Assembly: GCF_011046735.1 (NCBI RefSeq)
Contig: NZ_CP049258.1
Span: 1,218,001-1,282,000, forward strand
Reading direction: 5' to 3'
Length of the DNA stretch: 64,000 bases
Origin: Nordella sp. HKS 07
Lineage (GTDB): Bacteria; Pseudomonadota; Alphaproteobacteria; Rhizobiales; Aestuariivirgaceae
Positions 30,609 to 54,245 of this stretch are shown piece after piece. The position numbers and the translations under genes were made by a program. Below the pieces are notes generated by a model, which saw only the letters and a list, made by a program, of their open reading frames with translations, ran no database searches and had not been told where the DNA came from. The number at the start of each line of letters is the position of its first letter. Positions within the stretch are counted from its first letter, which is position 1.

Positions 30609-33600
30609 CTACCAGGCGACTCGCACCCCGGCATTGCCGGCGAAAGCCTCGTAGTCGTCGGCGAACTGGTAGTTGCCACGCAGGAAGCCCGACCAGCCTT
30701 CCGGCGCCGTGGCACTGAAGCCGAGCGACACATCGCCATAGGTCTGGGCCGGATCGTCCGCCACGCCGAAGGCCGGGATCAGCGGGTCGATGATCGTCGC
30801 GCCGTTCTCGCCCGAGAAGTTCTGCCACACGCTCGCCGTCACATCCGACGAATAGACCACCGCATTGCTCGCCGCGTGGTCATAACCGAGCCTGAGGCCG
30901 AGACGGCCGCGCAGGCTCGTCTCGTCGTCGAACTCGACCGTGCCGCCGAAGATATCGACATCGTCGATCGAGGTGTGGAGCAACGCCAAGGTGGCCTGCG
31001 GTTCGAAGAAGGCGCCGACGCCGGCGCCGAACTTGTAGCCGGCATCGATCATGGCGCCGATATTGAGGCCGTCGGTGTCGGACTCATCCGCCGCCTGCGC
31101 CAGATCCTCGGGGTCGATGGAGATATTGAGGAAGTCCGCCTTGACGGTCGCATCGGCATAGAAGGCGCCATTGAGATAGCTCGCATAGACACCAAGCGAC
31201 GGGCCACTATAGCTCCATTCGGTGTTGGTATCCTTGAAGTCGAGATCGGAGCCGAGATAGCCGCCGAACAGGCCGAACATCAGCGCATCGCCCTGGCCGC
31301 CGACATTCTCCAGGCCGAAGTCGAAGCCCGCCATGCCGCCGAGCACCGTCTGCTTGCGGTCCAGCGTGAAACCGTTCTGCTCGTCGTCGCGCTCGAGCCA
31401 GGCGCCCACACCCCTCATCCAGAAGCCCGGCAGGAGCCTGGCGACCGGCGTCGCCTCGACCGGCTCGGTGAAGTCGGCGACCGGGGTGACCAGCATGCCG
31501 GCGATGACCGATCTCAGATCGGCCTGGCGCTGCAGCAGCACGCCGGTCGACTGGAACCACATGTCCTGCGCGGCGGTGATGCCGGCGGCGAACTCGTAAG
31601 CCCCGACGCCGATGCCGGAGCTGTAGAGCTCATGCACATTGTTTTCGGCATCGTATCTCAGATCCCAGGCGTAGAAGCCGGCATTGAGCGGACCCGCGAG
31701 CTGGAAATCACCCTCGACGGTGTTACCGGTCGACACTCCCACCACCGGAATGCCGACGACATTGGCGCCCAGCGCATCGAGGACATTGACCGAGATCCAG
31801 GTCGTTCCGTCCTCGCCGACGCTGCCGTCGATCTCCAGCATGTCGGCTTCGCCGCCAGCTCCGCCGCCGAGCACGGCATCGACCGCGAGCCGGCCCTCGC
31901 TGGCGAAATAGGTCGAGTTCCCCTCGCCATCCCCGCGAAGTTCGAGCCGATCGCCGATCGCCCCGTCGGCGAGCGAGATCAAGCCGTCGGAATTGGTGAA
32001 CGTTCCAGACCGAAGAGGCGCGTTCTCTCAACCTGCGTCGCATCATTGGCGGCCAGCAGCGTGCCGGAATTGGTGACCACGTCGTCGCCGCCCCCGAACA
32101 GGTTCGCGCCGCCGGCGGTGTTCCAGAAGCCGGCATTGTCGAGACGGTCATCGTTGAATTGTCCGGATTCTCCACCGATGCCGAGGTTCACGATGCCGAT
32201 GAGATTGCCATTGTTCGTGATCTCTGTCTCGCCGCCATCGGTCTCGATGGCGAGGTAGTCCGAACGGCCGGACAGATTGCGCACCAGACCATCATTGATG
32301 ATCGAGATGTCCTGGCCGTCATCCGAATAGGCATCGATGGCGCTGCCGGCGCCTTCGACGAGACCGCTGGCGCCGATGACGATCCTTGTGTCGCCGGTTC
32401 CATAATTCTCGCTATCAATTCCGTAATCGCTAGAACCGGTCACCCTTCCATAGATGACGATCGTAAGATCGCCGTCGCCATATTGCTCGGCATCGATGCC
32501 GTCATCGTCTCCCTCGACAACGCTTCCAACATTAGTGGTGATCTTGAGGCTGGTGCCGGAATCTGAATTTTCTGCTTCAATGCCGCTGTTCCTGGTGCCG
32601 ATAACCGTGCCATTGACGGTGATCTCGAGCTTGCCACGGCCGTTGTTCTCCGCGTCGATGCCATCGTCACTTCCGGTAACCTTGCTTTGCGCACCGGTGG
32701 TGACAGTCAGATCGGCGCCATCATTGCTGTCCCAGTTGCCATTCCCGGCAAATATGCCGTCACCGTCCTCGCCCTCGACACGGCCATTGACCGTGATGGC
32801 GAGATTGCCTTCGCCGTAGTTGCGTGCATCGATGCCATGACCGGGGCCTTCGTCATACTCTCTATAGGCCAGCCCCTTTCCGATGATCACACTCCCGACA
32901 CCGGTGGTGATCGTGAGATTGGTACCCTCGTTTCTGGCATAGAGGCCGCTATAGCCTTCCCCGGTCACCTGGCCGTACACGTTGACATCCAGATCCCCAT
33001 CACCCTGATTATCGGCGATGATCCCAGTATCCCCGCCCGCGATGGCGCCTTGCGCGCCGACGGTGATCTCGAGATTCGAACCCCGATTGACGGCCAGCAG
33101 TCCATAATTCCTACCGGCCACCTCGCCTTCGGCCGTGACGGTGAGTTCGCCTATCCCCTCATTGAAGGCCTCGATACCTTCATCGCGACCAGAGATGACG
33201 CTACCCTCGCCGGCGGTGATCGTCAGGTCATTACCATCGTTGCGCGCATGGATGCCGTCCGAATTTTCCCCCTCTACAGCGCCATCGGCCGTAACCGAGA
33301 GGTCGCCGTTCCCGTAATTGCGGGTGTAGATGCCATAGGTGGCACCCCTGATATTGCCGTTGGTCTCGATCGTCACCCCGCCACTCATCTCGTCATTGCC
33401 AGTCGAGATGACAGCAAGCCCGGCCGAGTCGGTGCTCCTGATGGAGGAGGCGTTGGTGTCGATGAAGGTCAGTTGACCGTCGCCGGTGATGACGATGCCG
33501 CTGCCTGCGTCGGTATATACGCTGAAGCCCGCCACCGTCGTGACAGTGGCATTGTCGGCAGTGATGGTCTGCCTCCCGCTGTCGCCGCTGCAGATATAGG

Positions 33601-33763
33601 TCGACGGGTCTGTCGGGTCGCAGGCGGCGAAGGCCTGACGGCCATAGCCGATGAAGGGCACAACGGTGAGGACGGTCGTCAAAGCCAGCCGGCTGCGAAA
33701 GACACGGCCCACGCGCCGTGTGAGCGATACAGCCTGAGTTGCCGCCTTGATATGCCGTTCCAT
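30609..33763 (-). pseudogene. Autotransporter AT1 (type Va, beta-helix repeat passenger), single-base frameshift
   Basis: Two overlapping frames make one gene of about 1,051 codons. The first (33763-31979) holds a long signal region (RSRLALTTVLTVVPFIGYGRQAFAA) and a repeat passenger of GI-A-N-G-GDLTIT-G-VTG rungs. The second (about 31982-30609) holds the hinge ISLADGAIGDRLEL, AAQDMWFQSTGVLLQRQADLR, the barrel and the C-terminal W (NAGVRVAW). Near 32000 the reading frame passes from GLERSP... to (F)TNSDGLISLADG: paralogues read GLERF here, so one T has been lost from a TTT. The result would be a secreted passenger without a barrel. It may be a true pseudogene or a sequencing error. Its promoter and box are intact (33810-33891). 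Confidence 0.8.
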
Positions 33764-33809: not shown

Positions 33810-33837
33810 AAACTAGACTGACATTAAGTCACTGCAA
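33810..33837 (-). promoter_or_regulatory. Predicted promoter of AT1
   Basis: On the minus strand TTGCAG (33837-33832), 16 bases, TAGTTT (33815-33810), about 45 bp before the start codon. Conserved with the AT2 and AT3 promoters. Confidence 0.5.
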
Positions 33838-33875
33838 CAGGAACTTTTCCCAGCGCGCGCAAATATCGGCGCGCC

Positions 33876-33891
33876 GTGGCTTTTCTGCCAC
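33876..33891. promoter_or_regulatory. Shared autotransporter box, copy 1 (AT1)
   Basis: GTGGC-TTTTCT-GCCAC, perfect 5-bp arms. Centre about 80 bp before the predicted start of transcription. Same sequence, with 6-bp spacer, before AT2. Confidence 0.55.
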
Positions 33892-34046
33892 GAGCGAAGT
33901 CGACTTCTCGCGCCCTGGATGAACAAAAAAGCGGCGTCACACGAGGAACGTGTACGCCGCTGCAATTTTTCGTTGAACTACGCCAGGCAAGCAGCCTGTC
34001 ATTGCGACAGGCTGCCCGCGTGATTCGATCCGCTCCGTCTCCTCGC

Positions 34047-37000
34047 CTACCAGGAGTATCGCACCCCGGCATTGCCGGTGATGGCATCGAAATCCTCGGC
34101 GAACTGGTAGCTGCCGCGCAGGAAGCCCGACCAGCCTTCGGCCGCCGTGACACTGAAGCCGAGCGAGATGTCGCCGAGCGTCCCGATCGTGTCATCCGAC
34201 ACGCCGAAATCGGTGAGGCCCGTCGCCGAGATCGACGCGTCATTGCTGCCGTTGAACTCCTGCCAGACGCTCGCCGTCAGGTCCGACGAATAGACCATGG
34301 CGTTGCTGGCGATGTGATCATAGCCGAGCTTCAGACCGAGCCGGCCCTTGATGCTGGTCTCGCTGTCGAAGTCGACATCGCCGCCACCGACCTCGGTATC
34401 GTCGATATCGGTGTTGAGCACGGCCAGAGTTGCCTGCGGCTCGAAGAACACGCCTTCACCAACGCCACCGATCTTGTAGCCGGCATCGATACGGCCGCCG
34501 AGATTGATGCCGTCGGTGTCGCTGTCATCGGCACCCAGGTCGTCCTGCTCGATGTCGATCGACAGGAAGTCGGCCTTGACTGTCACATCGGCATAGAATG
34601 AACCGCTCAGATAGGTGGCATAGGCGCCAACCGTCGGGCCGTCATAGGTCCATTCGCTGTTGGTCTCGCTAAATTTCAGCGTCGAGCTGAGATAGCCGCC
34701 GAACAGGCCGAACAGCCAGGTGTCGCCGCCCGTTGCATCCGTCGCGAAGTCGAAGCCGGCGAGGCCGCCATAGATCGACTGCTTGCGGTCGAGCGTGACG
34801 CCGTCGGTTTCGGCGTCGCGGTCGAGCCAGCCGCCGACCGCGTTGAACCAGAAGCCCGGGCCGACACGGCCCGCGGCTGTCGGCGCGACCGGCTCGGTGA
34901 AGTCGGCGACCGGCGTGACCTGCGTGCCGTTGAGCAGCGGGCGCAGATCGGCCTGGCGCTGCGCCAGCGTGCCGGTCGTCTGGTGCCAGATCTCCTGGGC
35001 GCCGGTGAGACCGGCCGCCATCTCATAACCGCCGATACCGACACCCGAGGTGAAGAGCTCGTACCAGTTCTCTCCTTCGTCGAAGCGCAGATCCCAGGCG
35101 AAGAGGCCGGCATTGACCGGGCCCGCGAGGCTGAAATTATCGGGGCCGGTCTCGCCATTGATGACCTTGACCACCGGGATGCCGAGCACATTGACGCCCG
35201 ACACACCGACGACATTCACCGCGATGGTGGTCGTGCTCGCTTCATCGACATTGCCGTGGATTTCGAGAGTGTCCGATTTGCCGGCGTCTCCGGCGCCGAG
35301 CACGGCGTCGACCGCCAGGCGGCCATTCGTGGCGGAATAGGTCAGGCTTGGGTTATGGTCGAACAGCATGGAATCGCCGAACGGCAGGAACATTTCGTTG
35401 ACCAGCACGAGGGTATCGCCGACAGCCCCGTCGACGAGCGTTATCTGGCCGCCGTCATTGTCGAACCTCTCCAGACCACCGAGGAGCGTCTCTTCATTCT
35501 CCGTCGCGTCATTGGCCGCCCGCAGAACGCCAGAATTGGTGACCTCGTCCTCACCACCACCGAAGTCGTTCCAGCCGTCGGACGTGTCCCAGAAACCGGC
35601 ATTGTTGAGGCGACTATCGGTGAAGTCTTCAAAGTCTCCGAGGTCCACGGTGCCGATGAGATTGCCATAGTTCTTGATCGTGGTGTCGCCGTCGTCAGTC
35701 TCGATGGCGCGATCGCTTGATGAGCCCGACCGGTTGCGCACCGTACCCAAATTGGTGATCGAGATGTCCTGGCCGTAATCCGAATCGGCGTCGATGGCGG
35801 AATCATTGCCCTCGACGATGCCGCTCGCACCTATGGTGATAATCGTCTCGCCAGAACCATCATTTTCCGTCTCGATGCCATCGTTGTAGTAACCGGTTAC
35901 CTTGCCATTGACGATGATGGTGAGATCGCCATCACCATTCTGTTCGGCATAGATACCGTCATCGTATCCCCAGACCACGCTTCCGACACCTGTGGTGATC
36001 GTGAGACCGGTGCCGTTGGATGAATTTTCCGCGTAGATACCGTCGTCGCTACGCCCGGTCACTGCGCCGTTGACGGTGATCTCGAGCTTGCCACGACCAT
36101 CGTTCTCCGCGTAGATGCCATAGTCTTCTCCGATGACCTCGCTCTGCGCGCCGGTGCTGACGGTCAGATCGACGCCGTTATCATCGTTGTCGGCATATAT
36201 GCCGTCACCGTCCAAGCCCTCGACAAGGCCGTTGACCGTGATGTCAAGATTACCTTCACCGTAGTTTTCGGCGTAAATGCCGTCGCGAGAGCCGGTTATC
36301 GCACTCTGCGCGCCAGTGGTGATCGCCAGATTGATGCCGTTTGACGAGTTCCGGGCATAGATACCAGCGCCGTCCAGACCAGTGACCTGACCATTGGCGG
36401 TAATATCGAGATCCCCGGAGCCATCGTTGCGGGCATAGATGCCATGACCGGGGCCAGGGCCTGCGTCAAACACTTCGCTATCTGCGCCATGGCCGATGAT
36501 CACGCTCTCGGCACCCGTGGTGATGATGAGGTTTGTTCCGTAGCTTGAATTTTCGGCGCGAATGCCGCTGCCACCGTATCCCTGCACCGTACCGTCGGCG
36601 AAGATCTCAAGCTCGCCGTAACCATCGTTGTCCGCGAAGATACCATCACGCTCTCCAGTGACCTCGCTTTGCGTGCCGGTTCTCACCGTCAGATCGTCGC
36701 CGACAGGATGCTCGTTCACCGGGTGAAAGAAGCCGTTCCTGGCAACAATGCCGGCACCGCTCCACCCGGTCACATTTCCATTAACGGTAATGTCGAGATC
36801 GCCTTCACCATGGTTGCGGGCCTCGATGCCGTCATTGCCGCCGGAGATGTCGCTGTCCTCGCCAGTGGTGATTGTCAGATCGTTGCCATAGTTGAGCGCG
36901 GAGATGCCGTCGCCGGTCCTCCCCGTTACCGCGCCACCAACCGTCACCGAGACATCGCCGGCGCCGTCATTGCGGGCGTCGATGCCGGTGGCGCCGGTGA

Positions 37001-37433
37001 TATTGCCGTTCGTGTCGATTATGACCCCACCTGCCTCGGTGACTTCATCCTCGATATTGCCGGTCGCATGAACAAGGAGGCCGGTGCCGTTTTCGCTCGT
37101 GATCGGCGAGGCGTTGGTGTCGATATAGCTCAACCGGCCGTCGCCAGTGATGGTGATGCCGTTGTCGGCGCCGGCCGCGGTCACGGAAAAGCCCGCGACC
37201 GTCGCGACGCTGGCGCTATCGATATTGATCGTCTCCCCCGCGCTGGCGCCGCCGCAGGAATAGGTCGAAGGGCCCGTCGGGACGCAGGCCGAGGCGGCCA
37301 CAGCCTGGCGGCCATAGCTGATGAACGGCACGACGGTAAGGACGGTTGTCAAGGCCAGCCGGCTGCGAAAGGCAGTGCCCACGCGCCGCTTGTTCGATAC
37401 ATCCTGAGTTGCTGCCTTGATATGCCGTTCCAT
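34047..37433 (-). CDS. Autotransporter AT2, type Va, repeat passenger
   Basis: 1,128 residues. N-terminus MERHIKAATQDVSNKRRVGTAFRSRLALTTVLTVVPFISYGRQAVAA is a signal peptide with a long basic leader. Passenger about 50-650: alternating units of about 33 and 23 residues (GAQSEVIGEDYGIYAENDGRGKLEITVNGAVTG then RSDDGIYAENSSNGTGLTITT), the pattern of a parallel beta-helix. Hinge NSGVLRAANDATENEETLLGGLERFDNDGGQITLVDG. The barrel begins near VGPGFWFNAVGGWLDRDAETDGVTLDRKQSIYGGLAGFDF, and the protein ends YSW, the aromatic C-terminal BAM signal. Likely surface-displayed adhesin-like protein; ligand unknown. Intact. Confidence 0.92.
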   Translation of the reverse strand: MERHIKAATQDVSNKRRVGTAFRSRLALTTVLTVVPFISYGRQAVAASACVPTGPSTYSCGGASAGETINIDSASVATVAGFSVTAAGADNGITITGDGRLSYIDTNASPITSENGTGLLVHATGNIEDEVTEAGGVIIDTNGNITGATGIDARNDGAGDVSVTVGGAVTGRTGDGISALNYGNDLTITTGEDSDISGGNDGIEARNHGEGDLDITVNGNVTGWSGAGIVARNGFFHPVNEHPVGDDLTVRTGTQSEVTGERDGIFADNDGYGELEIFADGTVQGYGGSGIRAENSSYGTNLIITTGAESVIIGHGADSEVFDAGPGPGHGIYARNDGSGDLDITANGQVTGLDGAGIYARNSSNGINLAITTGAQSAITGSRDGIYAENYGEGNLDITVNGLVEGLDGDGIYADNDDNGVDLTVSTGAQSEVIGEDYGIYAENDGRGKLEITVNGAVTGRSDDGIYAENSSNGTGLTITTGVGSVVWGYDDGIYAEQNGDGDLTIIVNGKVTGYYNDGIETENDGSGETIITIGASGIVEGNDSAIDADSDYGQDISITNLGTVRNRSGSSSDRAIETDDGDTTIKNYGNLIGTVDLGDFEDFTDSRLNNAGFWDTSDGWNDFGGGEDEVTNSGVLRAANDATENEETLLGGLERFDNDGGQITLVDGAVGDTLVLVNEMFLPFGDSMLFDHNPSLTYSATNGRLAVDAVLGAGDAGKSDTLEIHGNVDEASTTTIAVNVVGVSGVNVLGIPVVKVINGETGPDNFSLAGPVNAGLFAWDLRFDEGENWYELFTSGVGIGGYEMAAGLTGAQEIWHQTTGTLAQRQADLRPLLNGTQVTPVADFTEPVAPTAAGRVGPGFWFNAVGGWLDRDAETDGVTLDRKQSIYGGLAGFDFATDATGGDTWLFGLFGGYLSSTLKFSETNSEWTYDGPTVGAYATYLSGSFYADVTVKADFLSIDIEQDDLGADDSDTDGINLGGRIDAGYKIGGVGEGVFFEPQATLAVLNTDIDDTEVGGGDVDFDSETSIKGRLGLKLGYDHIASNAMVYSSDLTASVWQEFNGSNDASISATGLTDFGVSDDTIGTLGDISLGFSVTAAEGWSGFLRGSYQFAEDFDAITGNAGVRYSW

Positions 37434-37486
37434 GTGCCCTCCCGAAAATGTGTGCGGGTCCGGATTCGGAGCCGCAGATGGGCGGG

Positions 37487-37514
37487 AAATTAGACTGACA
37501 TAAAGTCACTGCAA
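37487..37514 (-). promoter_or_regulatory. Predicted promoter of AT2
   Basis: Minus strand TTGCAG (37514-37509), 16 bases, TAATTT (37492-37487), about 50 bp before the AT2 start codon. Confidence 0.55.
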
Positions 37515-37551
37515 CAGGAATTTTTCCCCGACCGCGCAAAATCGATGTGAC

Positions 37552-37567
37552 GTGGCTTTTCTGCCAC
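37552..37567. promoter_or_regulatory. Shared autotransporter box, copy 2 (AT2)
   Basis: GTGGC-TTTTCT-GCCAC, perfect. Identical arms and spacer to copy 1; centre about 80 bp before the predicted transcription start. Confidence 0.55.
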
Positions 37568-37884
37568 AGACGCGGCGGACTTCTTCGCGCACTGGATGAG
37601 CTAGATCGCGGCGTCACACCGAGAGCGTGCGAAATATATCGTTGAGCAATCTCGATTTGATATCTCGTAAGTGCGTCGGATCTCGAAGTGATTCGGTCCG
37701 CTCCCCGGCGGCGGCTTCTCCCTCCGCCATGCGAAGCGCGGAGAGTGTGTCCGCCCACGGGCGGACGGGTGTGGTGTCTCCAGCGCTCATCAATGGGCGT
37801 GAGTAGCTCTTGCGGGGACGCAGAGCGCGACGAGTTCGGTTCTACCTATCGCTGCCGGACGTTGAAGGAAGTGTTGCAACAAAC

Positions 37885-37942
37885 TCACCCCATCCTAGTG
37901 GGCGCTTCGAGGGCCGCTTCGCGGCCACCTCAGCGTGAGGTT
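37885..37942. repeat. GC-rich intergenic repeat, family 3 (copy 2)
   Basis: Core CTTCGAGGGCCGCTTCGCGG followed by CCACCTCAGCGTGAGG, shared with 30385-30494 and 42051-42092. Confidence 0.7.
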
Positions 37943-38126
37943 TCTTTGGGAAGGGCGATTCCTTTTAGAGCCATCACGCTCATCGTATTGAGACGGCTAT
38001 TGAACGATCCCCTCGCCCCCGGCGGGAGGGCTGTCCGGGGAAACTTACGACATGCCAGAGAAAATCACGTAAAGAATGGGATTCGTGACACGTCTTGTCT
38101 AACGAGACTCGGAACTCGCCTTCATT

Positions 38127-38310
38127 CCCCTTCTCCCGCAGGCGGGAGAAGGGGAAACCGGGTAAAGGCCTTGCGTACTGCAATGAGCGGGAGTGAGGGC
38201 GAACCAGCGGCACAATCCTGATGCGATGCCGGAACGATTGCCGTCAGTTCCCCCTCACCCTCCCGATGCTTCGCATCGAGTCCCTCCCTCTCCCCCGTTG
38301 GGGGCGAGGG
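38127..38310. repeat. GC-rich palindromic intergenic element, family 1 (copy 4, composite)
   Basis: CTTCTCCCGCAGGCGGGAGA hairpin at one end, CCCTCACCCTCCCGATGCTT and CCCCCGTTGGGGG-type arms at the other, about 180 bp overall. Mixes features of both family-1 subtypes. Confidence 0.7.
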
Positions 38311-38376
38311 TATAAGCGCACCCGACACAAGTTGTGTGAATCGGATAGTCGCCTTCGGCGATGGAGAGAAAATTCC

Positions 38377-41300
38377 CTACCAGGCGTATCGCACGCCGGC
38401 ATTGCCGGTGATCGCCTCGAAATCCTCGGCGAACTGGTAATTGGCCCGGAGGAATCCCGACCAGCCTTCGGGCGCCGTGACGGCGAAGCCCAGCGAAATA
38501 TCGCCGAGCGTCGCGATCGTGTCGTCCGCAACGCCGAAATCATCGAGCCCCGTCACCGCGATCGAGGCGTCGTTGCTGCCGTTGAACTCCTGCCAGACGC
38601 TCGCCGTCACATCCGACGAATAGACGACGGCGTTGCCGGCGGTCTGATCATAACCGAGCCTCAAGCCGAGCCGGCCCTTAACGCTCGTCTCGCTGTCGAA
38701 ATCGACATCGCCGCCATAGATCTCGGTGTCGTCGATATCGCTGTTGACCACGGCGAGCGTGGCCTGCGGCTCGAAGAAGACGCCCTCCGTTCCGCCGATC
38801 TTGTAGCCGGTATCGACGCGGCCGCCGAGATTGACGCCGTCGGTGTCACTGTCGTCGGCCGCCGCCGCCAAGTCTTCCGGGTCGATCGAGATCGAGAGGA
38901 AGTCGGCCTTGACAGTGACGTCGGCATAGAAGGCGTCGTTGAGATAGGTCGCATAGGCACCGACCGTCGGGCCGTCATAGGTCCACTTGGTGTTGGTCTC
39001 ACTGAACTTCAGCGTCGAGCCGAGATAGCCGCCGAAGATGCCAAACAGCCAGGTCTCGCCGCCCGCCGCATCCGTGGCGACGTCGAAGCCGGCAAGGCCG
39101 CCATAGATCGACTGCTTGCGGTCGAGCGTGTAGCCGTCCTGCTCGGCGTCGCGGTCGAGCCAGCCGCCCACCGCATTGAACCAGAAGCCCGGGCCGACGC
39201 GGCCGACGCCGGCCGGCGCCACCGGCTCGGCGAAGTCGGCAACCGGCGTCACCTGCGTGCCGTTGAGCAGCGGGCGCAGATCGGCCTGGCGCTGCGCCAG
39301 CGTGCCGGTGGTCTGGTGCCAGATATCCTGGGCGCCGGTGATGCCGGCGGCGAATTCATAAGCGCCGATGCCTATGCCTGAGCTGTAGAGCTCGTGCCAG
39401 TTCTCGAGCGCATTGTATCTCAGATCCCAGCTGAAGAAGCCGGCCTGGATCGGGCCATCCTGCAGAACAAAATCGCCCTCGCCGGTCTCGCAGTCGATGA
39501 CATCGACCACCGGAATGCCGAGCATATTGGCGCCCAGAACATCGACGACATTGACCGAGATCCTGGTTGTCCCGCCACTGACATTGCCGCCGATGAACAA
39601 CACGTCCGACAGTCCGTCCGAGCCGGCGCCCAGCACCGCATCGACCGCGAGGCGGGCATCCGTCGCGGAATAATCCACCTCGCCGGGTCCTTCCCCGATC
39701 AGCCTGAGGATGTCTCCAGCCCGTCCGTCGACCAGCGAGACCAGCCCGGAGTTCCCGAACCTCTCCAGCCCCTCGAGGACCGTCTCCTCATCCATGGCCT
39801 TATCGTCGGCGGCGAGGAGCGTACCGGAGTTCGTCACCTCATCATCGCCATCGTAAAATTTGCTCGTGCCATTCGCCATGTTCCACAAGCCGGCATTTTC
39901 GACGGTGTCATCGTGGTCGTCGAGATCCACATAACCGATCAGGGTGCCCCGGTTCAGGACATCCGTCTCGGCGCCCCCCGTGTAGATGGCCTGGTCATCA
40001 GATTCGGCCGAGAGATTCCGGACCACGCCGTCATTGGTGATCGCGATGGTCTGTTCGCCGTCGGAAACGGTTTCAATAGCGGCGAAATCACCCTCGACGA
40101 GGCCAGTGCCGCCGATCTTGATGAGGGTGTCGCCACCGCCATCATTTTCGGCTTCTATACCGGACCCAAAGAGATCCTCCTCACCCCGGCCTGTGACACG
40201 ACCGTCGACGGTGATGTCGAGATCGCCGGCGCCATAGTGGTTCGCATCTATGCCGTCGCCGCCGATACCCGTTACCAGGCTGCCGGCGTCGGTGACGATC
40301 TTCAGGTCATCGCCATAGTTGAAATTGTAGGCACCTATGCCGTCGTCTCCCTGGCCGGTGACCGTGCCCCTGACAGTGATCGCAAGAATGCCTGCACCGG
40401 TGTTGCCGACGTCAATGCCGTCGTCGCGGCCGGTGATCACACTGGCGGCTCCCGTGCTGATCGTCATGTTCTGGGCGGCGCCATAATATCTCCGTTGAAC
40501 GGGCGGGATATAACCGCTGTCGCCGTTGAAATTATAGGCGCGGATGCCGTCGCCATCATTGCCGGTGACCAGGCCATTGACGGTGATCGAGAGATCGCCC
40601 GCCCCCCCATTGAACGCCGTGATGCCACTGCGCTCTCCCGTGACCACGCTGCCCGCGCCCGTGGTGATGGTCAGATCCTGACCGGCGCCATTCTTGAAGT
40701 CATAGTCACCCCCACCATAAACCTTGACACCTCCCAAATTATAGGCGCGGATGCCGTCGCCGGAATAGGCGGTGACCTGGCCGTCGGCGATGACCGTGAG
40801 ATCGCCGCCACCATAATTGCGGGCATTGATGCCGTTGTCGTCACCGCTGATCACGCTGGTCGATTCGGTGGCGACCGTCAGGTTGGCGCCGTTTTCGGAA
40901 TTGTAGGCATAGACGCCGGCGCGCTCTTCGCCGGTGACGATGCCTCTGGCAGTGACGATGAGGTCGCCTTTGCCGAAATTGTTGGCGTTGATGCCGTTCT
41001 CGCGGCCAAAGACGCTGCTCTGCGTGCCGGTGGTGATCGTCAGATCGAGGCCAGTGCCCATGCCGAGATTACTCACGGCACGAATGCCGTCGCCCGCCAA
41101 GCCGGTAACCCGGCCATTGGCCGTAATGTCGAGATTGCCCATGGCTTCACTGTCGGCGAGGATGCCGTCAGCCCCGGTGACGGCACTGCCGATACCGGTG
41201 GTGATCGTCATATCGTCGCCCATATTACTATAGGCGTGGATGCCAGCGCCGCTCTCCCCCGTGACTGTACCATCGGCCGTGATGTCAATATCGCCCTGAC

Positions 41301-41781
41301 CATCAGTGCGGGCGTATATGCCCGCCGCGCTCCCCGTTATGGCGCCATTCGTCTCGATCGTCACCGCGCCATCATCGGTGTTATTGCCCGTCGCTCCGAC
41401 ATAGAGGCCATGGCCATTGGTACTGGTGATGACGGAAGCGGTGCGGTCGATGAAGCTCATGGCGCCGTCACCGGTGATGGTGATGCCGTTGCCGGCGGCG
41501 GTCGTCACGCCAAAACCCGCAACCGTCGTGACAGCGGCATCATTGGAGGTGATGGTCTGCGCCCCGCTGGCGCCGCTGCAGGTATAAGTCGGCGCCACCG
41601 GATCCGGCACGCAGGCGGCTTCGGCCTGGCGGCCATAGCCCATGAACGGCGCCACGGTCAGGACCGTCGTCAGAGCCAATCGATTGCGAAATGCGCGGCT
41701 TGCACGTTGCGCGCGAGAAGCATCCGAAGATGCCGTCCAAGTCTTCCGTATCACGTACCGTCCCCCAGCGATGCGGGGCAA
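38377..41781 (-). CDS. Autotransporter AT3, type Va, repeat passenger
   Basis: 1,134 residues from the ATG at 41781; a GTG at 41754 preceded by GGGGGAC would give a leader the same length as in AT1/AT2. Signal region RNRLALTTVLTVAPFMGYGRQAEAA, repeat passenger of the same 33+23-residue units (GIHAYSNMGDDMTITTGIGSAVTG...GDLTVIADGQVTA), hinge NSGTLLAADDKAMDEETVLEGLERFGNSGLVSLVDGRAGDILRLIGEG, then AQDIWHQTTGTLAQRQADLRPLLNG, and a barrel ending NAGVRYAW. The passenger has looser units around the tandem insertion GVKVYGGGDYDFKNGAGQDL. Function: predicted surface adhesin or structural passenger. Intact, with its own promoter. Confidence 0.92.
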   Translation of the reverse strand: MPRIAGGRYVIRKTWTASSDASRAQRASRAFRNRLALTTVLTVAPFMGYGRQAEAACVPDPVAPTYTCSGASGAQTITSNDAAVTTVAGFGVTTAAGNGITITGDGAMSFIDRTASVITSTNGHGLYVGATGNNTDDGAVTIETNGAITGSAAGIYARTDGQGDIDITADGTVTGESGAGIHAYSNMGDDMTITTGIGSAVTGADGILADSEAMGNLDITANGRVTGLAGDGIRAVSNLGMGTGLDLTITTGTQSSVFGRENGINANNFGKGDLIVTARGIVTGEERAGVYAYNSENGANLTVATESTSVISGDDNGINARNYGGGDLTVIADGQVTAYSGDGIRAYNLGGVKVYGGGDYDFKNGAGQDLTITTGAGSVVTGERSGITAFNGGAGDLSITVNGLVTGNDGDGIRAYNFNGDSGYIPPVQRRYYGAAQNMTISTGAASVITGRDDGIDVGNTGAGILAITVRGTVTGQGDDGIGAYNFNYGDDLKIVTDAGSLVTGIGGDGIDANHYGAGDLDITVDGRVTGRGEEDLFGSGIEAENDGGGDTLIKIGGTGLVEGDFAAIETVSDGEQTIAITNDGVVRNLSAESDDQAIYTGGAETDVLNRGTLIGYVDLDDHDDTVENAGLWNMANGTSKFYDGDDEVTNSGTLLAADDKAMDEETVLEGLERFGNSGLVSLVDGRAGDILRLIGEGPGEVDYSATDARLAVDAVLGAGSDGLSDVLFIGGNVSGGTTRISVNVVDVLGANMLGIPVVDVIDCETGEGDFVLQDGPIQAGFFSWDLRYNALENWHELYSSGIGIGAYEFAAGITGAQDIWHQTTGTLAQRQADLRPLLNGTQVTPVADFAEPVAPAGVGRVGPGFWFNAVGGWLDRDAEQDGYTLDRKQSIYGGLAGFDVATDAAGGETWLFGIFGGYLGSTLKFSETNTKWTYDGPTVGAYATYLNDAFYADVTVKADFLSISIDPEDLAAAADDSDTDGVNLGGRVDTGYKIGGTEGVFFEPQATLAVVNSDIDDTEIYGGDVDFDSETSVKGRLGLRLGYDQTAGNAVVYSSDVTASVWQEFNGSNDASIAVTGLDDFGVADDTIATLGDISLGFAVTAPEGWSGFLRANYQFAEDFEAITGNAGVRYAW

Positions 41782-41802
41782 ATCGGCACCCGTTGGCGGA
41801 CA

Positions 41803-41830
41803 GGATTAAGCTGACATCGGGTAATCGCAA
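41803..41830 (-). promoter_or_regulatory. Predicted promoter of AT3
   Basis: Minus strand TTGCGA (41830-41825), 16 bases, TAATCC (41808-41803). Same arrangement as at AT1/AT2. Confidence 0.45.
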
Positions 41831-41868
41831 CAGAATATTTTACTTAATCAGCACGAAATCGATAGACC

Positions 41869-41884
41869 GTGGCTCTGCTGACAC
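41869..41884. promoter_or_regulatory. Shared autotransporter box, copy 3 (AT3)
   Basis: GTGGC-TCTGCT-GACAC, one mismatch to the perfect arm. Centre about 80 bp before the predicted AT3 transcription start, the same distance as copies 1 and 2. Within the 357-bp gap 41782-42138, which has no gene. Confidence 0.5.
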
Positions 41885-42050
41885 AACCGCAGCGGACCTC
41901 ATCTCGCATTGGATGAGTCAAGGCTCCGCACTGCAGCGAGAACGTGCGTTCGCCGCAACGTCTCGTTGAGCAAATCCGGAATCGACACATCGTCATCGAG
42001 CCGGATCTCAAGGTGACTCAATCCACCTCGAAGGTGTATTGCAGCACGCT

Positions 42051-42092
42051 CGCTTCGAGGGCCGCTTCGCGGCCACCTCAGCGTGAGGTTTC
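42051..42092. repeat. GC-rich intergenic repeat, family 3 (copy 3)
   Basis: Short copy with the core CTTCGAGGGCCGCTTCGCGG and CCACCTCAGCGTGAGG, between AT4 and AT3. Confidence 0.7.
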
Positions 42093-42138
42093 TCCTGCGC
42101 GCCACTCTCGCCGCCTTCGGCGGTGGCGGGAGAATTCT

Positions 42139-45100
42139 CTACCACGCGTATCGCAACCCGGCATGGCCGGTGACAGCATCGAGGTCCTCGGCGAACTGGT
42201 AATGGCCGCGCAGGAAACCCGACAAACCGTCGGGGGCGATCACGCTGAAGCCGACCGAGACATCACCGATCGTCTGGCCAGGATCGTCGGCCACACCCGT
42301 CGTGGGGAAAAGCGGCGCCGTGATGGTGGCGTCATTGTCGCCCGAGAAATCCTGCCAGACGCTCGCCGTGACATCGGAGGAATAGATGACAGCATTGCCG
42401 GCGATCAGCTCGTGACCGAGTCTCAGTCCCAGCCGACCGCGCAGGCTCGTCTCGTCGTCGAAGGAGACGGCGCCGCCGAAGACACCGACATCATCGATCT
42501 CGGTATGGATAAGCGCCAGCGAGGCCTGCGGTTCGGCGAACAGGCCATGATCGAGGCCGAGCCTGTAGCCGAGATCGATCTGGCCGCCGAGATTGAAGGC
42601 GTCAGTCTCGGCATCATCCGCCGCCGGCGCCAGATCCTCGGGATCGATATCGACATCGAGGAAGTCAGCCTTGACGACCGCATCGGCATAGAAGGCGCCG
42701 GCGACATAGGTCGCATAGACGCCGAGCGTCGGGCCTTCATAAGTCCATTTGGTGTTAGTCTCGCTGAATTTGAGATCGGATGTCACATAGCCGCCGAACA
42801 GGCCGAGCAGCATGGCATCGCCGATCCCGTCGACAGCGATGTCGAAGCCGGCGAGACCGCCGAACACCGTCTGCTTGCGGTCGAGCGTGAAGCCATCTTC
42901 CTCGCCGTCGCGGTCGAGATAGCCGCCGACCGCCTTGAACCAGAAGCCTGGACCCACACGGCCGGCTGCCGCGGGCGCGACCGGCTCACTGAAATCGGCA
43001 ACCGGTGTCACCTGCGTCGAGGTGAGCAACGGACGCAGATCGGCCTGGCGCTGCAGCAGCGTGCCGGTCGTCTGCTGCCAGATGTCCTGCGCAGCCGTAA
43101 TACCGGCCGCGAATTCATGAGCACCGGCGCCGAGGCCTGAGGTGTAAAGCTCATGCGTGTCGCCATCGAGCCTCAGATCCCAGGCGAAGAAGCCGGCATT
43201 GAGCACGCCGCCTTCGACGTCGAAATGAGATGCGTCCGTGCTTCCGCCCACGAAGATTACCGGCAGGCCAACATAATTCGGCGTGCTGCCGGCCGGGTTT
43301 GTCAGATTGACGACAAGACGCGTGGTTCCGCTCGTGTCGCTATCGACGACAAGCTTATCGGTGGCGCCGTCTTCCGACAGAAAGCCATCTATCGCCAGAC
43401 GGCCGCCATGACCGACAAATTCCGTCGCACCGCTGAGGCGCAGCGTGTCTCCGTCATGCCCGTCGATCAACGAGACGACGCCGGAATTGTTGAAGGTCTC
43501 GAGATTCAGCAGCTCCGTGAACTCGCTGTCCTCGCCGTCATGCGCGGCGCGCAGAGCACCGGTATTGTCCACGACGTCGTCGCCGTCGCCGAAATCGCTC
43601 GCCGACGGTCCCACGCCGCCGACTTCCCACAGGCCACTGTTGTTGAGCGTATCGCCGAAAGCGCCGAGCGAGACCGTGCCGACCAACTGATTGTCGTTGC
43701 TGATCGTCGCGGCGCCGCCGGTGGTCGTGATGGCCCGGCCATCCGCCTCACCGGAGAGATTGCGCACGGTCCCGTGATTGGCAATCGAAATGGCCTGCTC
43801 GTTCAGTGAACGGGCCCAGATGCCGGATTCGTCGCCCTGGACGAGACCTCCGCCCGCCACTCTGAGGTCGGTGGTCGCATCGCCGGTATTGACGGCTCTT
43901 ATGCCGTAGGACTCCGTGCCGGTGACCGCGCCCTTCACGGTGACTTGGAACGCACCGCTGGTCTCGTGGCGGACGTCGATGCCGTCATTCGCGCCGCTGA
44001 CGACGCTTCCCGCTTCGGTGGTGATCGCCAGATCGGCGCCCTCGTTCTCGGCATAGATCCCGTCGTCGCCGCGCCCCTCGACGATCCCGTTGACGGTGAT
44101 GGTGAGATTGCCGGCGCCATCGTTCTCGGCATAGATCCCGTCGTCCCCAGCCGAGATGAAGCTTCCGGCGCCTGTGGTGATCGTAAGGTTGCGGCCGTTA
44201 TTTTCGGCGCCGATGCCGTTGCCGCCCGTATGCAGGGTCGTGATCGCGCCATTCGCGGTGATGGTGAGATCGCCTGTCCCGTCATTCTGGGCGTCGATGC
44301 CCTCGTAGTTGGCATTGATGGCGCTGCCCGCTTCGGCGGTGATCGTGAGATTCACGCCCGAATTCGAGGCATCGATGCCATCGCTGGTCTTGGCGGTCAC
44401 TGTCCCGCCGATCGTGATGAAGAGATCGCCAGTGCCGTCATTATCGGCATCGATACCATCCGCCTCACCGGTGATGTTGCTCCGGGCGCCGGTCGTGATG
44501 GTCAGATTCCGACCAGAGACAGCTTCCGCATGTATGCCATCGCCATCTTCGCCCGTGACCAGGCCATCCGCCGCGATCACGAGATCTTGGGCGCCATTGG
44601 CCATGCGGGCGTCGATGCCGTCAGTGGCGCTTTGACGTTGCTCCCGGCCCCCGTGATAATTGTGAGTTGAGCATCGTTGTCGAAGTTGCGGGCATATATG
44701 CCGTCGAAATTCGTGCCGGTGACGTCGCCATCGACGGTGATGGTGAGAGCGCCGCGGCCGCTGTTCTGGGCGGCGATGCCGTTGAACCCCTTGACGGCGC
44801 TTCCCGCGCCGGTCTCGATCGTCAGGGCGTCACCCGCCGCATAATTAACCGCCATTATGCCATTGCCAGTTGTCCCGGTGGCGGCGCCATCGACCGTGAT
44901 GGCGAGCGTGCCACTGCCGGAATTGCGGGCTTCGATGGCATCGGTGCTTCCCTTGACGTCGCTTCCTGCTCCGGTGGTGATCGTCAGATTGGCGCTGTTG
45001 GCGCTGTTCTGGGCGCGGATGCCGTAGCCATCGAGGCCTGTGACATCACCAAGTGCCACAATCTCAAGATCCTCTTGCCCGGAATTCGTGGCATAGATCC

Positions 45101-46946
45101 CATGGGTTCCCCCGGTGACCGCGCTTGCCGCACCGGTGGTGATCTTGAGATTCTTGCCGTTGTTGGAATTGAAGGCGGTGATGCCGGCACGGGTCGTTCC
45201 CTCGACGCTGCCATTGGCCGTGATAGTGAGATCGCCGCTGCCGGAATTATTGGCGTTGATTCCATTTGCATCGCCGGTGATCACGCTCGCAGCCCCGGTG
45301 GTCACCGTCAGACTGACGGCCGGCGACCGGTTGTCCGCTACTATGCCGTCGCCGTGCTCTCCAGTGACCTCCCCGTCGGCGGTAATGACGAGATCGCCGC
45401 CGCTGCCATAGTTCTTGCCGCGGATGCCGTGGAGCTTGCCGGTGATGTCGCTTCCCGCCGTCGTCGTGATGGTCAGGTCGCCGCCATTGGACGAGTTGAA
45501 AGCCTCGATGCCATAACGGGTTTCGCCCGTCACATTGCCATGGGCAATGATATCGAGATCGCCATCCCCGTTATTCCGGGCGAGGATGCCATTTCGATAT
45601 CCGGTGATATTGCTGCCCGATCCGGCGGTGATCTTCAGGGCGCCGGCACCGGGCGTGTTCAGGGCATATATGCCGTCGCGCTCCGTCCCCGTGACCTCGC
45701 CATCGGCGGTGATGGTGAAATCGCCCCTGTCGTTTCGGCCGGCAATACCATCATAACCCGTGACGTTGCTCTCAGCCCCGGTCTTTACCGTCGCGCTGGC
45801 GCCGGAATAGTTGACGACCCATATGCCTCTGCCGACTGTGCCCGTGACCTCGCCATAAGCTGCCACCAGGAGCGCGCCATGGCCGAGGCTTCGCGCCTCG
45901 ATGCCGTCATAGCCGCCCGTGACGACGCTTCCGGCGGCGGCGGTGACCGTCAGATCGCCGCTGCCGGGAAGATTGAGGGCATAGATCCCTTCCCGCTCTG
46001 TCCCGGCGACCTCGCCATGAGCGCTAATCGTAAGGTCTCCACTGCCTCCGTTGACGCCGCGGATGCCCATGAAATTGCCGGTGATCTCGCTCGCCGCGCC
46101 GGTCGTTATCGTCAGATTTTCACCAGCTGCCGAAGTGCTGGCGAAGATGCCATGCGCTTGGCCTTCCATTCCCGTGACCTTGCCATTGGCGGTGATGGTG
46201 AGATCGCCGGAGCCCAAGCTGCGGGCGTCGATCCCGTCGCCATATCCCGAGACCTCGCTCTCCGCGCCGGTGGTTATCGTCAGGTTCCGGCCACTCGAGC
46301 CGACAGAGGCGGATATGCCATCGACCCGTGCTCCGGTGACCTTGCCATCCGCCGTGATCTCGAGATCGCCCGTGCCCGCATTATCGGCCTTGATGCCGTG
46401 CGTATAACCGGAGACGGTGCTCCCTGCCCCGGTGCGGATGGTCACATCGCCACCGATCGCGGTGTTGCCGGCGTTTATGCCGTCATAAGCGAGCCCCGTG
46501 ACACTGCCGTTGGCGGTGATGTTGATATCTCCGCCGCCGTCATTCCGGGCATGGATGCCGTTGTCGCCGCCGGTGATGGTGCTGTTCCCGGTGATCGTGA
46601 TCGCCCCTTGCGTGGCTCCGGCGTCGCCCGTCACCCGCATATCGAGGCCGTTGTCATCACCAGTTATTATCGATGCGTTGCCGTCGACGAACTGCAGATG
46701 ACCATCGCCGGTGATGCTGATGCCATGGCCGGCGGGCGCGTTCACGCTGAAGCCCGGAACCGTCGATACATTCGCATTGTCGGCGGTGATGGCCTGCGTC
46801 ACGATATTGGCGCCGCCGCATAAGAAGGTGGGAGACGGTGACGGATCGCAGGCGGCAGAGGCCTGGCGGCCATAGCCGAAGAAAGGCGCAACGGTGAGGA
46901 TCGTCGTCAATGCCAGACGGCGGCGAAACAGGCGGCTCGACCCCAT
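42139..46946 (-). pseudogene. Autotransporter AT4 (largest paralogue), single-base frameshift
   Basis: A gene of about 1,602 codons in two frames. The start is well supported (GAGGGA before ATG 46946; MGSSRLFRRRLALTTILTVAPFFGYGRQASAA). The passenger carries many 33+23-residue beta-helix rungs, e.g. GAESEVSGYGDGIDARSLGSGDLTITANGKVTG. At about 44630 the frame changes: the first frame runs on as SNVKAPLTASTPAW, while shifting by one gives SNVKGATDGIDARMANGAQDLVIAADGLVTG, the next proper rung. One G of an expected GG appears lost. The second frame continues through the hinge (LLNLETFNNSGVVSLIDG) and barrel to LRYAW. Translation would stop in the passenger, leaving no barrel. Real decay or sequencing error cannot be told apart here. 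Confidence 0.8.
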
Positions 46947-47054
46947 AATTCCCTCAGCGGAAATCCGAATGTTTCAAAGTGATAACGCGAGGCAGGCTTC
47001 GCGCTCAATAAGAAACCGACGCTAAGTCAGAGAAGCGCACGGAAATTTGATGGT

Positions 47055-47070
47055 GTGGCCATTTAGCCAC
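47055..47070. promoter_or_regulatory. Shared autotransporter box, copy 4 (AT4)
   Basis: GTGGC-CATTTA-GCCAC, perfect (TGTGGC..GCCACA over 18 bp), centred about 115 bp before the AT4 start codon. The -35/-10 pair is less clear here and, by alignment with AT1, would be about 23 bp closer to the box. Confidence 0.5.
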
Positions 47071-47156
47071 AACCCGCCATGGCCCCGGATATCTCCGGTC
47101 GTAAACTACGCCGGCAACATTCAACTTGTAGCTGTCCCAAAACGGCGCCAGCCGCC

Positions 47157-48436: not shown

Positions 48437-51400
48437 CTACCAGGCATATCTGATGCCGGCATTGCCGCTATAGGCGTCATAATCGCTGGCGAATTGATAG
48501 TTCCCGCGCAGGAAGCCCGACCAGCCTTCCGGGCTCGCGACGGCGAAGCCGAGCGAGACATCGCCCATGGTGGCGCCCGGATCATCCGACACGCCGAGAT
48601 CCGGCAATCCCGGGGTGGCGATGGTGGCATTGTTGTCGCCCGAGAAGTCTTCCCAGACGCTGGCGATCACATCGCCCGAATAGATCATGGCGTCGCTGGC
48701 GGTATGATCGAAGCCGAGCCTGAGACCCAGCCTGCCCATGACGCTGGTCTCGTCATCGAAAGCGACCGTGCCGCCGAAGACATCGACATCGTCGATCTCG
48801 CTATGCACCGCGGCGAGCGAGGCCTGCGGTTCGACGAACAGGCCTTCGCCGAATTTGTAGCCGGTGTCGATCCGGCCGCCGATATTCAGAGCGTCGGTGT
48901 CGCCGTCATCGGCAGCGGGTGCCAAGTCTTCCGGATCGATCCCGATGTCGAGGAAGTCGACCTTGAGCGTCGCATCGACAAAGAAGGCGCGGTCGAGATA
49001 GGTCGCATAGACGCCGACCGAGGGGCCTTCATAAGTCCATTCGGTATTGGTCTCGTCGAATTTGAGCGTGGAGGTGAGATAGCCGCCGAAGACGCCGAAC
49101 AAAAGCGCGTCGCCGACATCCTGGGTGCCGAAATCGAAGCCCGCGAGACCGCCCCAGATCGTCTGCTTGCGGTCGAGGATGAAGCCATCCTGCTCGTCGT
49201 CGCGCTCGAGATAGGCGCCGACGCCTGAGAACCAGAAGCCGGGCGTGACGCGTGCAACGGGTGTCGGGGCGACCGGCTCGCCGAAATCGGCGACCGGGGT
49301 GACGCCGGTGCCGCCGAGCAAAGACTTGAGATCCATCTGCCGGCCGAGCAGCGTTCCGAGCGACTGGAACCACATATCCTGGGCGCCGGTCATGCCGCCG
49401 GCGAATTCCTCGGCGCCGATGCCGATGCCGGAGGTGAACAGTTCATGCACGTTTTCAGCTGCGTTGAAGCGCATGTCCCAGCTGTAGAAGCCGGCATAAA
49501 GCGGCCCGTCGAGGACAAAGTCGCCAGCGCCGGTGATGCCGCTGAAAACGCGGATGACCGGTATACCCTCGCTGGCGCCCGTGGCATCGACGACATTGAC
49601 GTGGACCTTCGTCACGCCCGTGACATTGCCTTCAATGTGGAGCTCGTCCGCTTTGCCCTCGGGCCCGAGGATGGCGTCGACCGACAAATGGCCGTCTTCG
49701 CTCAGATAGTCGGTATCGCCGGCGAACACGCTACGGATCACCAGGCTGTCGCCCGCCTGGCCGTCGACCAACGAAACCAGCCCTGAATTGTTGAAGCGCT
49801 CGAGACCGGCGAGGATCGATGTCTCGGGCGCGCCGGGATCGGCTGCGGCGAACAACACACCGCGGTTGTTAACCTCATCGTCTCCGCCGTCGTCGAAGTT
49901 GTTTTCACCGGTGGTCGACCACAGGCCGTCATTGTTGAACGTATCATCGGATGTGCTGAGCTGCACCGTGCCGATGATCGCGCCGGTATTGTTGATCTCG
50001 GTCGCGCCGCCGGTCGCCACGATCGCGTAGGCATCGGACAGCGCCGACAGATTGCGCACGATGCCGTCATTGGTGATGGTGATCGACTGATCGTCCCGCG
50101 ACTTTGCATAGATGCCGGAGGCCCTGCCCTGCACCAGGCCCGCGCCGCCGATCTCGATCTCGGTGCTGTCGCCACGATTATTGTCGGCGTAGATGCCGAA
50201 GCCGGGATTGCAGATGCAGTTCGCGGTGACATTACCATCCTCGCCCAGGCCGGTGATCGTGCCATTGACCGTGATCTTGAAGGCGCCGCCCGCGCCGTCT
50301 TGCGTGGCGTCGATGCCGTCATCCCCGCCTGTCACCACGCTTCCCGGCCCGGTGATGATCGTCAGGTCGTTGTCATCGCTGTCCGGATTGCTTATCGCAT
50401 AAATGCCGTCCTCATAGGCGCCGGTGACCTGGCCATTGACCTCGATTTTCAGGTTGCCGGAGCCGTAATTGCGCGCATGGATGCCGTGTCGGTCGCCGCC
50501 GACGATGCTGCCCGCGCCGGTGATGATGGTGAAGTCGCCGCCGATTTCGGTCAAACCTTCGCTGCCGTCGAGGCCAAATATGCCATCACCCGTCTGGCCT
50601 GTGACCTGGCCATTGGCGGTGATCAGGAACTCGCCGTCGCCGCTGTCCTCGGCATAGATGCCATAATATCTGCCGGTCACCTTGCTGGCGCTCTCCGTGG
50701 CGATGGTAAGGCCGAGCGCCCTGCCCTCGACAAATCCACCTGAATCGCCTCCCACCCACAACTCGCTATAGACATTGCGGGCGAAAATGCCGGCGCCATT
50801 TTTGCCGGTGACTTCGCCTCGGGTAGTGATCGTCAGGCTCCCGGCGCCGTAGTTGCGCGCATCGATGCCGTCCGCGACGCCTCTGATCGTACTGGCGGCG
50901 CCCGTGGTGATACTCATATTCTTGGTGAGATCGGGATTGTAAACCGGGGCATAGATGTCGACGTCGCGATTGACGGCATGGATTCCGTCGCCATTCTGAG
51001 CGTAGCCGCCCACCAGGCCATTGGCTGTGATTTCAAGCCTGCCGATGCCGCTATTATAGGCGCCGATGCCGTTGCCGCCGCCCTGGATCAGGCTTTGCTC
51101 GCCCGTCTGGACGATGAGGTCCGTGCCATAATTCTTGGCAAAGATGGCGTCATTGATATTGCCGAACACGACGCCGTCGGCGGTGATCTTGAGATAGCCG
51201 GAGCCTTTGTTCAGCGCATCGATGCCATTGGAGTCCTGGATTGGATTTAGCGGATTCACCGGCGCCTCGCCGCGGATCACGCTCGAGGCGCCGGCGGCGA
51301 TGATGAGATTCTGCCCTTCGTTGACGGCCTGTATGCCGTCGCGGTTGCGACCGGTCACCGCGCCGTCGACGGTGATCGACAGATCGCCGGTGCCGTAATT

Positions 51401-53155: not shown

Positions 53156-53171
53156 GTCGCTGTACTGCTAC
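53156..53171. promoter_or_regulatory. Degenerate autotransporter-type box before fecR-AT5
   Basis: GTCGC-TGTACT-GCTAC with GTCGC in place of GTGGC, followed by AAAC as copies 2-4 are followed by A. The box is 77-92 bp before the fecR start, so the spacing differs from copies 1-3. Weak. Confidence 0.25.
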
Positions 53172-54127: not shown

Positions 54128-54133
54128 ATCTGA

Positions 54134-54206
54134 TTTTCCGATAGTCGAGCACAGTTTTTCCGATTTTACAATATCAGCTTCCCAACTCAATATTTGCATC
54201 CGCAAA
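54134..54206. promoter_or_regulatory. LysR-pxpA intergenic regulatory sites
   Basis: Direct repeats TTTTCCGAT at 54134-54142 and 54156-54164, exactly 22 bp apart (two helical turns), and TTTGC-N4-GCAAA at 54193-54206. Their place between divergent lysR and pxpA suggests LysR binding; not proven. Confidence 0.5.
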
Positions 54207-54245
54207 CAAGAGCCGCGACGGCCGGACCTATCGGGAGGAGTGAGT

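Follow-up and report, generated by a model that had tools for sequence, protein, structure and literature searches.

Autotransporter cluster and upstream box

The stretch analysed here, referred to as the window, comprises 64,000 nucleotides of the 7.18-Mb genome of Nordella sp. HKS 07 (G000:C1:1218001-1282000) and contains a run of autotransporter (AT) genes. Below, G000 denotes this genome, G001 to G004 four relatives of the same genus, and L-numbers individual loci. The genes AT1 to AT4, all on the minus strand, are preceded by a 16-bp inverted repeat, GTGGC-N6-GCCAC, which is perfect before AT1, AT2 and AT4 and carries one mismatch before AT3 (Table 1), as the first-pass annotation of this DNA had reported. 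Comparison of its intergenic copies shows the 16-mer to be the inner part of a longer palindrome of 24 bp, RAYTGTGRC-N6-GYCACARTY. Judged by its position and its neighbours, this element is very probably the operator of an envelope regulon, and we favor the reading that it serves one dimeric regulator of outer-membrane and envelope genes, both in this genus and elsewhere in the Hyphomicrobiales. By protein comparison a single named record was found, Aestuariivirga sp. YIM B02566 (70% identity in the best segment), which places the organism near Aestuariivirga.

Upstream of AT1, AT2 and AT3, the box is followed by a putative promoter of the form TTGC-N18-TA(A/G)T, read as TTGCNN-N16-TA(A/G)TNN, which the same annotation had also noticed. 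The distance of about 80 bp then given between box and promoter holds for the start predicted from the -10 element and not for the promoter itself; the first base of TTGC is 45.5 or 46.5 bp from the box centre. AT4 has a box and, by eye, no TTG at the standard distance. The upstream DNA of AT1 and AT2 is 81% identical over 161 bp and that of AT3 aligns with both, so the three genes are not three independent cases; independent support for the box is AT4 together with the sites in other genomes. With up to one mismatch the 16-mer occurs eight times in the window against 3.9 expected, a number reached by 6 of 100 shuffles, and this count, taken alone, is weak evidence. Only the AT3 box lies within three mismatches of the 24-mer, the outer arms of AT1, AT2 and AT4 being more divergent. 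The 24-bp matrix scores in Table 1 include three boxes from the training set of the matrix (AT2, AT3 and AT4); AT1 was outside it.

From the 16-mer to a 24-bp palindrome

By itself, the 16-mer is no commoner in the genome than chance predicts: G000 holds 20 sites where base composition predicts ~23 and the reversed control gives 73, and the copies are fewer than those of the reversed control in all five genus genomes. The first-pass annotation had named equal frequency inside genes as the mark of a chance motif, and the 16-mer behaves in this way, with 39 of 56 perfect copies in the five genomes falling in called genes. Three of the 17 intergenic perfect copies are the AT boxes of the window, and five belong to G002, G003 and G004, where they are part of AT clusters or precede an AT gene. 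Two, in G000, precede outer-membrane barrel genes by ~100 bp, four belong to one conserved terminator-like repeat, and the remaining three are others, two of them perhaps within missed genes. The larger motif was recognised from the barrel genes and from the extra bases common to the intergenic copies, which extend to GAYTGTGGC-N6-GCCACARTC. The terminator-like repeat, GTGGCCCCTGGGCCAC, is situated between two co-directional genes in four of the five genomes (L073, L094, L099, L111) and is probably a terminator. Four sites of the form GTGGC-NNNAAA-GCCAC outside the AT cluster were considered as marking one regulator gene and discarded, three being within called genes and one before a barrel gene.

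The 24-mer was searched with up to three mismatches in the five genus genomes, using the reversed motif as control, and yields 93 sites against 25 (20, 22, 11, 28 and 12 per genome against 4, 6, 7, 5 and 3). Genes around all 93 sites were called by codon usage. Forty-eight sites are intergenic and 45 coding (P ~1e-14 against a non-coding fraction of ~17%, the coding fraction of 83% being that of 172 kb of retrieved loci), so that the frequency inside genes noted for the 16-mer is not a property of the 24-bp palindrome. The intergenic share rises with match quality, to 5/5 of the one-mismatch and 14/16 of the two-mismatch sites, and the coding sites are poor, 43 of 45 carrying three mismatches. 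The arms of the boxes change singly and without compensation, as judged by eye, which argues for binding by a protein and against an RNA hairpin. An RNA hairpin or terminator was accordingly rejected, there being by eye no compensatory arm changes and no run of T following the AT boxes.

Genes next to the palindrome

At 38 of the 48 intergenic sites a gene starts within 350 bp, facing away from the box, and the neighbours of these 38 sites were sorted by hand. Nine sites lie at genes of the OMP_b-brl type, five confirmed by Pfam (L080, L147, L151, L166, L195) and four assigned by likeness, and another nine at autotransporters or the FecR genes preceding them. Six are at secreted proteins, for which no Pfam/NCBIfam family was found where tested; one (L197) is at a protein resembling, by eye, the L208 porin, and one is between a trypsin-like gene and an Ig-domain gene. 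Five sites, one per genome in all five genomes, fall between an aminotransferase gene and a YkuD transpeptidase locus, and five more, again one in each of the five genomes, have a GH3 gene on one side and an SbmA-like ABC gene on the other. The last two (L126, L198) are at other genes. In addition to its barrel gene, site L166 faces, at a distance of 201 bp, another transpeptidase gene that encodes a peptidoglycan-binding domain.

At the YkuD locus, ~510 bp separate the box from the transpeptidase start, and a small conserved frame lies in between. This unnamed frame of ~116 amino acids (aa) is located at L131:1169-1519, with counterparts at L152, L193 and L196. A MarR-type LdtR gene beside the transpeptidase was looked for and none was seen, the gap holding the ~116-aa frame in the four loci examined.

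These neighbours decide the fate of an explanation raised by the first-pass annotation itself, namely that the AT genes were duplicated together with their upstream DNA and that the box, a relic of mere ancestry, is functionless. The likeness of the AT1 to AT3 upstream regions and the chance-level frequency of the 16-mer are in its favor, but the AT boxes of G002 to G004 have flanks that are unalike by eye, and the explanation fails because the 24-bp palindrome stands before unrelated genes in many genomes. We regard it as extremely unlikely.

Distribution beyond the genus

Elsewhere in the order, the pattern RAYTGTGRC-N6-GYCACARTY with at most one mismatch gives 46 matches in 39 of 295 genomes, against six for the control. 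Twenty sites were fetched for inspection: 18 of these 46, one from G045 and one from G000. None of the 20 lies within a called gene, although three loci (L211, L212, L217) have too few called genes for an intergenic position to be certain, and the gene caller, trained on this genus, is less sure in other families. Pfam confirms outer-membrane proteins at six of the 20: OMP_b-brl at L219 (the G000 site), L201 and L218, FadL at L200, BBP2_2 at L206, and DcaP/Porin_2 at L208. Four more (L205, L209, L210, L213) have an outer-membrane or autotransporter look by eye only; L213 and L216 have no Pfam match. In the class outside the order, one perfect site is located 104 bp before an OMP_b-brl gene (L233).

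Promoter geometry and proposed mode of action

The layout of the boxes was analysed in 38 representative sites, hand-picked, mostly one per orthologous group, and read in gene direction. This set includes the aminotransferase/YkuD and GH3 loci twice each, FecR three times and the AT2/AT3 paralogues, and shrinks to 33 once near-duplicates are removed. It keeps 11 of the 20 fetched loci, ten from outside the genus (one being G045) and L219 from G000; AT1, other orthologues, all coding sites, L126, L139, L166, L198 and nine of the ten gene-less intergenic sites (L086:5832 was kept) were left out. Two features that played no part in finding the sites emerge from it. First, on the promoter side, the triad at positions 31-33 (19.5 bp from the box centre) is 84% A/T, compared with 40% at the mirror positions and a downstream mean of 49% (P 6e-15). 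Second, a TTG is found 33-36 bp after the 24-mer, that is 45-48 bp from its centre, in 15 of the 38 sites against 3.9 expected by rotation, a count reached in 0 of 20,000 rotations. With near-duplicates removed, the A/T patch stays at 84% and the TTG is seen in 13 of 33 against 3.4.

In class I activation in Escherichia coli, the C-terminal domain of the polymerase alpha subunit (alpha-CTD) binds ~19 bp from the activator centre. The one-sided A/T patch and the TTG spacing of the genus sites fit the layout of a class I activator centred near -81. A dimer of the regulator would bind the 24-mer at this position, place the alpha-CTD on the A/T patch 19.5 bp downstream and thereby recruit RNA polymerase to a sigma-70-type promoter, leading to activation. 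The first-pass annotation had concluded that one activator works on all genes; a single regulator is well supported, and for its role as an activator at -81, read from sequence layout, we consider the balance to be only slightly favorable.

Several observations weigh against an operator and activator of this scope. Almost half of the 24-mer sites in the genus (45/93) fall in genes, and 10 of the 48 intergenic ones have no called gene within 350 bp. In the family outside the genus, a stricter pattern has three matches in 64 genomes against two for the control. Beyond the order, the rest of the class gave 20 matches, with 16 for the control. Only 15 of the 38 representatives carry a TTG at the standard distance. 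The regular spacing to a promoter element claimed at the outset holds within the genus set and is lost beyond it, since the ten sites outside the genus show no TTG enrichment (1/10 against 1.5 expected), and their A/T patch is weaker (70%, P 0.017). Because the TTG spacing is absent there, the activator geometry rests on this genus.

Candidate regulators

The frame TGT-N12-ACA is present in 32 of the 38 boxes, at a random expectation of 0.1%; being largely built into the search pattern, this is weak evidence. The boxes of TyrR and PpsR/CrtJ, proteins with a Fis-type helix-turn-helix (HTH_8), have a TGT-N12-ACA frame, six-base half sites and an N6 spacer. The box described here shares that frame and differs in its half site, TGTGRC, and in its targets. 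A search of G000, in which 150 of 216 candidates were scored, found at least seven HTH_8 matches, and among the matches listed only the ntrC-ntrY region has two four-mismatch boxes within 25 bp (23 bp apart; matrix 11.5 and 13.0). They belong to a 46-bp block before ntrY that has 97% mean identity across all five genomes (L244, L247, L249, L250, L251), whereas its flanks fall to 37% in the 60 bp before and 48% in the 40 bp after. The right half sites in G000 are GCCACGAT and GCCACAGT, and matrix scores across the five genomes range over 8.5-11.7 and 9.8-13.0. The ntrC gene is directly upstream of the block.

We put NtrX forward tentatively as the regulator; the rest of the probability is shared by another HTH_8 protein (ActR/RegA, NtrC) or an unknown regulator. 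According to the accessible portions of the literature, the NtrX of Rhodobacter sphaeroides governs envelope genes as well as the operon that encodes it (PMC7240162), and the NtrX motif is published as CAA-N3-5-TTG, although published NtrX motifs disagree (PMC9223101). Three findings count against NtrX. First, the ntrY boxes are imperfect, with four mismatches each in G000 and five and five in G001. Second, L237 and L240, two other HTH_8 loci, each have one four-mismatch match. Third, the published NtrX motifs CAA-N2-5-TTG and GCA-N9-TGC occur in one of the 38 boxes each, no more often than by chance (random 2.2% and 2.7%), and are absent from the ntrY block.

A position more usual for repression is seen in the ntrY promoter, whose boxes start 69 and 46 bp upstream of the start codon. 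A regulator of this kind would turn the surface genes off, and the regular spacing would come from a common promoter layout. We consider this rather unlikely, as the genus boxes often stand 45-48 bp upstream of TTG with the A/T patch on the promoter side only, which is the class I layout.

That the operator belongs to a different HTH_8 protein, such as ActR/RegA/PrrA or NtrC, is likewise doubtful. Some Bradyrhizobium RegR boxes, in the part of PMC4064962 available, start TGCGGC or TGCGAC, one base from TGTGRC; the genome encodes a 189-aa response regulator with HTH_8 that is RegA-like by eye, and the adjacency of ntrC to the conserved block would suit NtrC. RegR/ActR/PrrA half sites differ in being variably spaced, where those described here were sought and found at N6, and their targets are redox and denitrification genes, whereas no redox genes were seen among the listed neighbours; nor does any match of up to four mismatches occur near the RegA-like gene.

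The OmpR-type envelope regulators known from the class, ChvI (BvrR) and CenR, have targets of the same kind, outer-membrane and cell-wall genes, in the accessible text of PMC9731502, PMC9275681 and PMC10538546. Their motifs TTGC-N3-GCAA, GCC-N8-GCC and TGA-N8-TGA are found in 0, 2 and 2 of the 38 boxes (random 0.3%, 8.9% and 0.9%); the CenR count for TGA-N8-TGA is slightly above chance yet lies outside the conserved positions. OmpR-type sites are moreover mostly direct repeats and the box is an inverted repeat, and an operator of ChvI or CenR is improbable.

Other frames were tried and set aside. The CRP/FNR site TGTGA-N6-TCACA occurs in none of the 38 boxes, whose half sites are 2 bp further apart; sigma-54 and LysR frames misfit in spacing by eye; and the LdtR site, A/T-rich in the available text of PMC5481520, does not fit the box.

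Features of the cluster

Table 1. Boxes, proposed promoter elements and genes of the autotransporter cluster (window coordinates).
Feature	Position	Strand	Remarks
AT1 box, 24-bp frame	33872..33895	-	core 33876-33891 perfect, outer arms degenerate; matrix 5.4
AT1 proposed -35 TTGCAG	33832..33837	-	46.5 bp from box centre; sequence
AT1 proposed -10 TAGTTT	33810..33815	-	N16 from -35; sequence
AT2 box	37548..37571	-	core 37552-37567 perfect; matrix 11.5
AT2 proposed -35 TTGCAG	37509..37514	-	45.5 bp from box centre
AT2 proposed -10 TAATTT	37487..37492	-	sequence
AT2 A/T triad, proposed alpha-CTD contact	37539..37541	-	19.5 bp from box centre, promoter side
AT3 box	41865..41888	-	core 41869-41884 with one mismatch; 24-mer with three mismatches; matrix 17.1
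AT3 proposed -35 TTGCGA	41825..41830	-	46.5 bp from box centre
AT3 proposed -10 TAATCC	41803..41808	-	sequence
AT4 box	47051..47074	-	core 47055-47070 perfect; matrix 16.9
Weak box before FecR-AT5 operon	53156..53171	-	two mismatches to 16-mer core
AT1 autotransporter	30609..33763	-	two overlapping frames: 31979-33763 without Pfam match; 30609-31982 AC_1 and beta domain
AT2 autotransporter	34047..37433	-	1128 aa, PF03797
AT3 autotransporter	38377..41781	-	1134 aa, PF03797; true start may be downstream of 41781
AT4 autotransporter	42139..46946	-	two overlapping frames: 44577-46946 without Pfam match; 42139-44604 AC_1 and beta domain
AT5 autotransporter	48437..52219	-	1260 aa, PF03797
FecR-domain gene before AT5	52231..53079	-	probably one operon with AT5

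AT1 and AT4 are each split in two frames, and many homologues in the relatives are single frames of at least 1000 aa; the split frames are possibly pseudogenes or sequencing errors. The split AT1 gene also has the weakest box. A strong hairpin with a T run, resembling an intrinsic terminator by eye, is located at 33925-33960 (minus strand), after AT2 and before the AT1 box, which suggests that AT1 probably has its own promoter. Three relatives have better boxes before the FecR gene than G000 does (L021, L022, L086). Within the cluster, a DUF4915 gene (47157-48290) shares ~91% identity with its counterparts in the clusters of three relatives and is much better conserved than the autotransporters. 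In G001, an autotransporter remnant lies between a LysR-type gene and FecR-AT5. A region of G002 (L022:11307-13839) has a perfect core box among AT genes, flanked by two divergent regulator genes, one GerE by Pfam and the other recognised by eye; this pair was dismissed as the source of the regulator, having no homologue in the AT-region loci compared.

The LysR-type gene adjoining the cluster (53216-54268) was weighed as the regulator. It is found near FecR-AT5 in four of the five genomes at ~91% identity, adjacent in three and ~1.6 kb away in G001. Its other neighbours, a LamB/YcsF gene and a run of carboxylase-like genes, may be its own targets. LysR sites have the frame T-N11-A. The palindrome gives T-N12-A and T-N16-A instead, and it occurs order-wide, making an operator of this protein highly improbable.

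Relationship to known systems

As far as the literature searched shows, a regulon of this kind in Hyphomicrobiales is unnamed: no published description of the operator was recognised there, in what were mostly partial texts with few subscription papers. From the 24-mer, lists of target genes can be predicted across the order, and an operator common to barrels, autotransporters and a transpeptidase locus would be a direct handle on envelope coordination. It also offers a candidate NtrX binding site in a field where published motifs disagree.

The box resembles the NtrX regulons of R. sphaeroides, Sinorhizobium and Brucella in its envelope targets, in a candidate regulator of the NtrC family and perhaps in ntrYX autoregulation, which the two imperfect boxes in the conserved block before ntrY may reflect. 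It departs from them in its motif, as CAA-N3-5-TTG and GCA-N9-TGC are not those of the boxes, and in its targets: none of the six published R. sphaeroides sites is at an outer-membrane barrel, and they belong instead to ntrYX and to genes for peptidoglycan, polysaccharide and division. The ChvI/BvrR regulon, in the same class, also covers outer-membrane and cell-wall genes and differs in its OmpR-type regulator and in the motifs TTGC-N3-GCAA or GCC-N8-GCC, which are not enriched here. The boldest extension would have NtrX, through RAYTGTGRC-N6-GYCACARTY, jointly set the barrels, the autotransporters and the L,D-transpeptidases that could fasten the barrels, across the whole order; it would amount to one common control of outer-membrane assembly and of its anchoring. 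This extension is speculative and more doubtful than the regulon in itself, being weakened by the TTG spacing, seen only in the genus, and by the 510 bp between YkuD gene and box.

A functional parallel is found in Agrobacterium and its relatives, which are without Braun's lipoprotein and in which L,D-transpeptidases fasten barrel proteins to peptidoglycan, according to the available text of PMC11527210. That text, in the part examined, names no shared regulator, and here the YkuD gene stands ~510 bp from the box. In the genus described here, the putative operator precedes barrel and autotransporter genes, and one transpeptidase locus lies beside a box in all five genomes, so that a joint control of outer-membrane assembly and anchoring is a plausible role of the operator.

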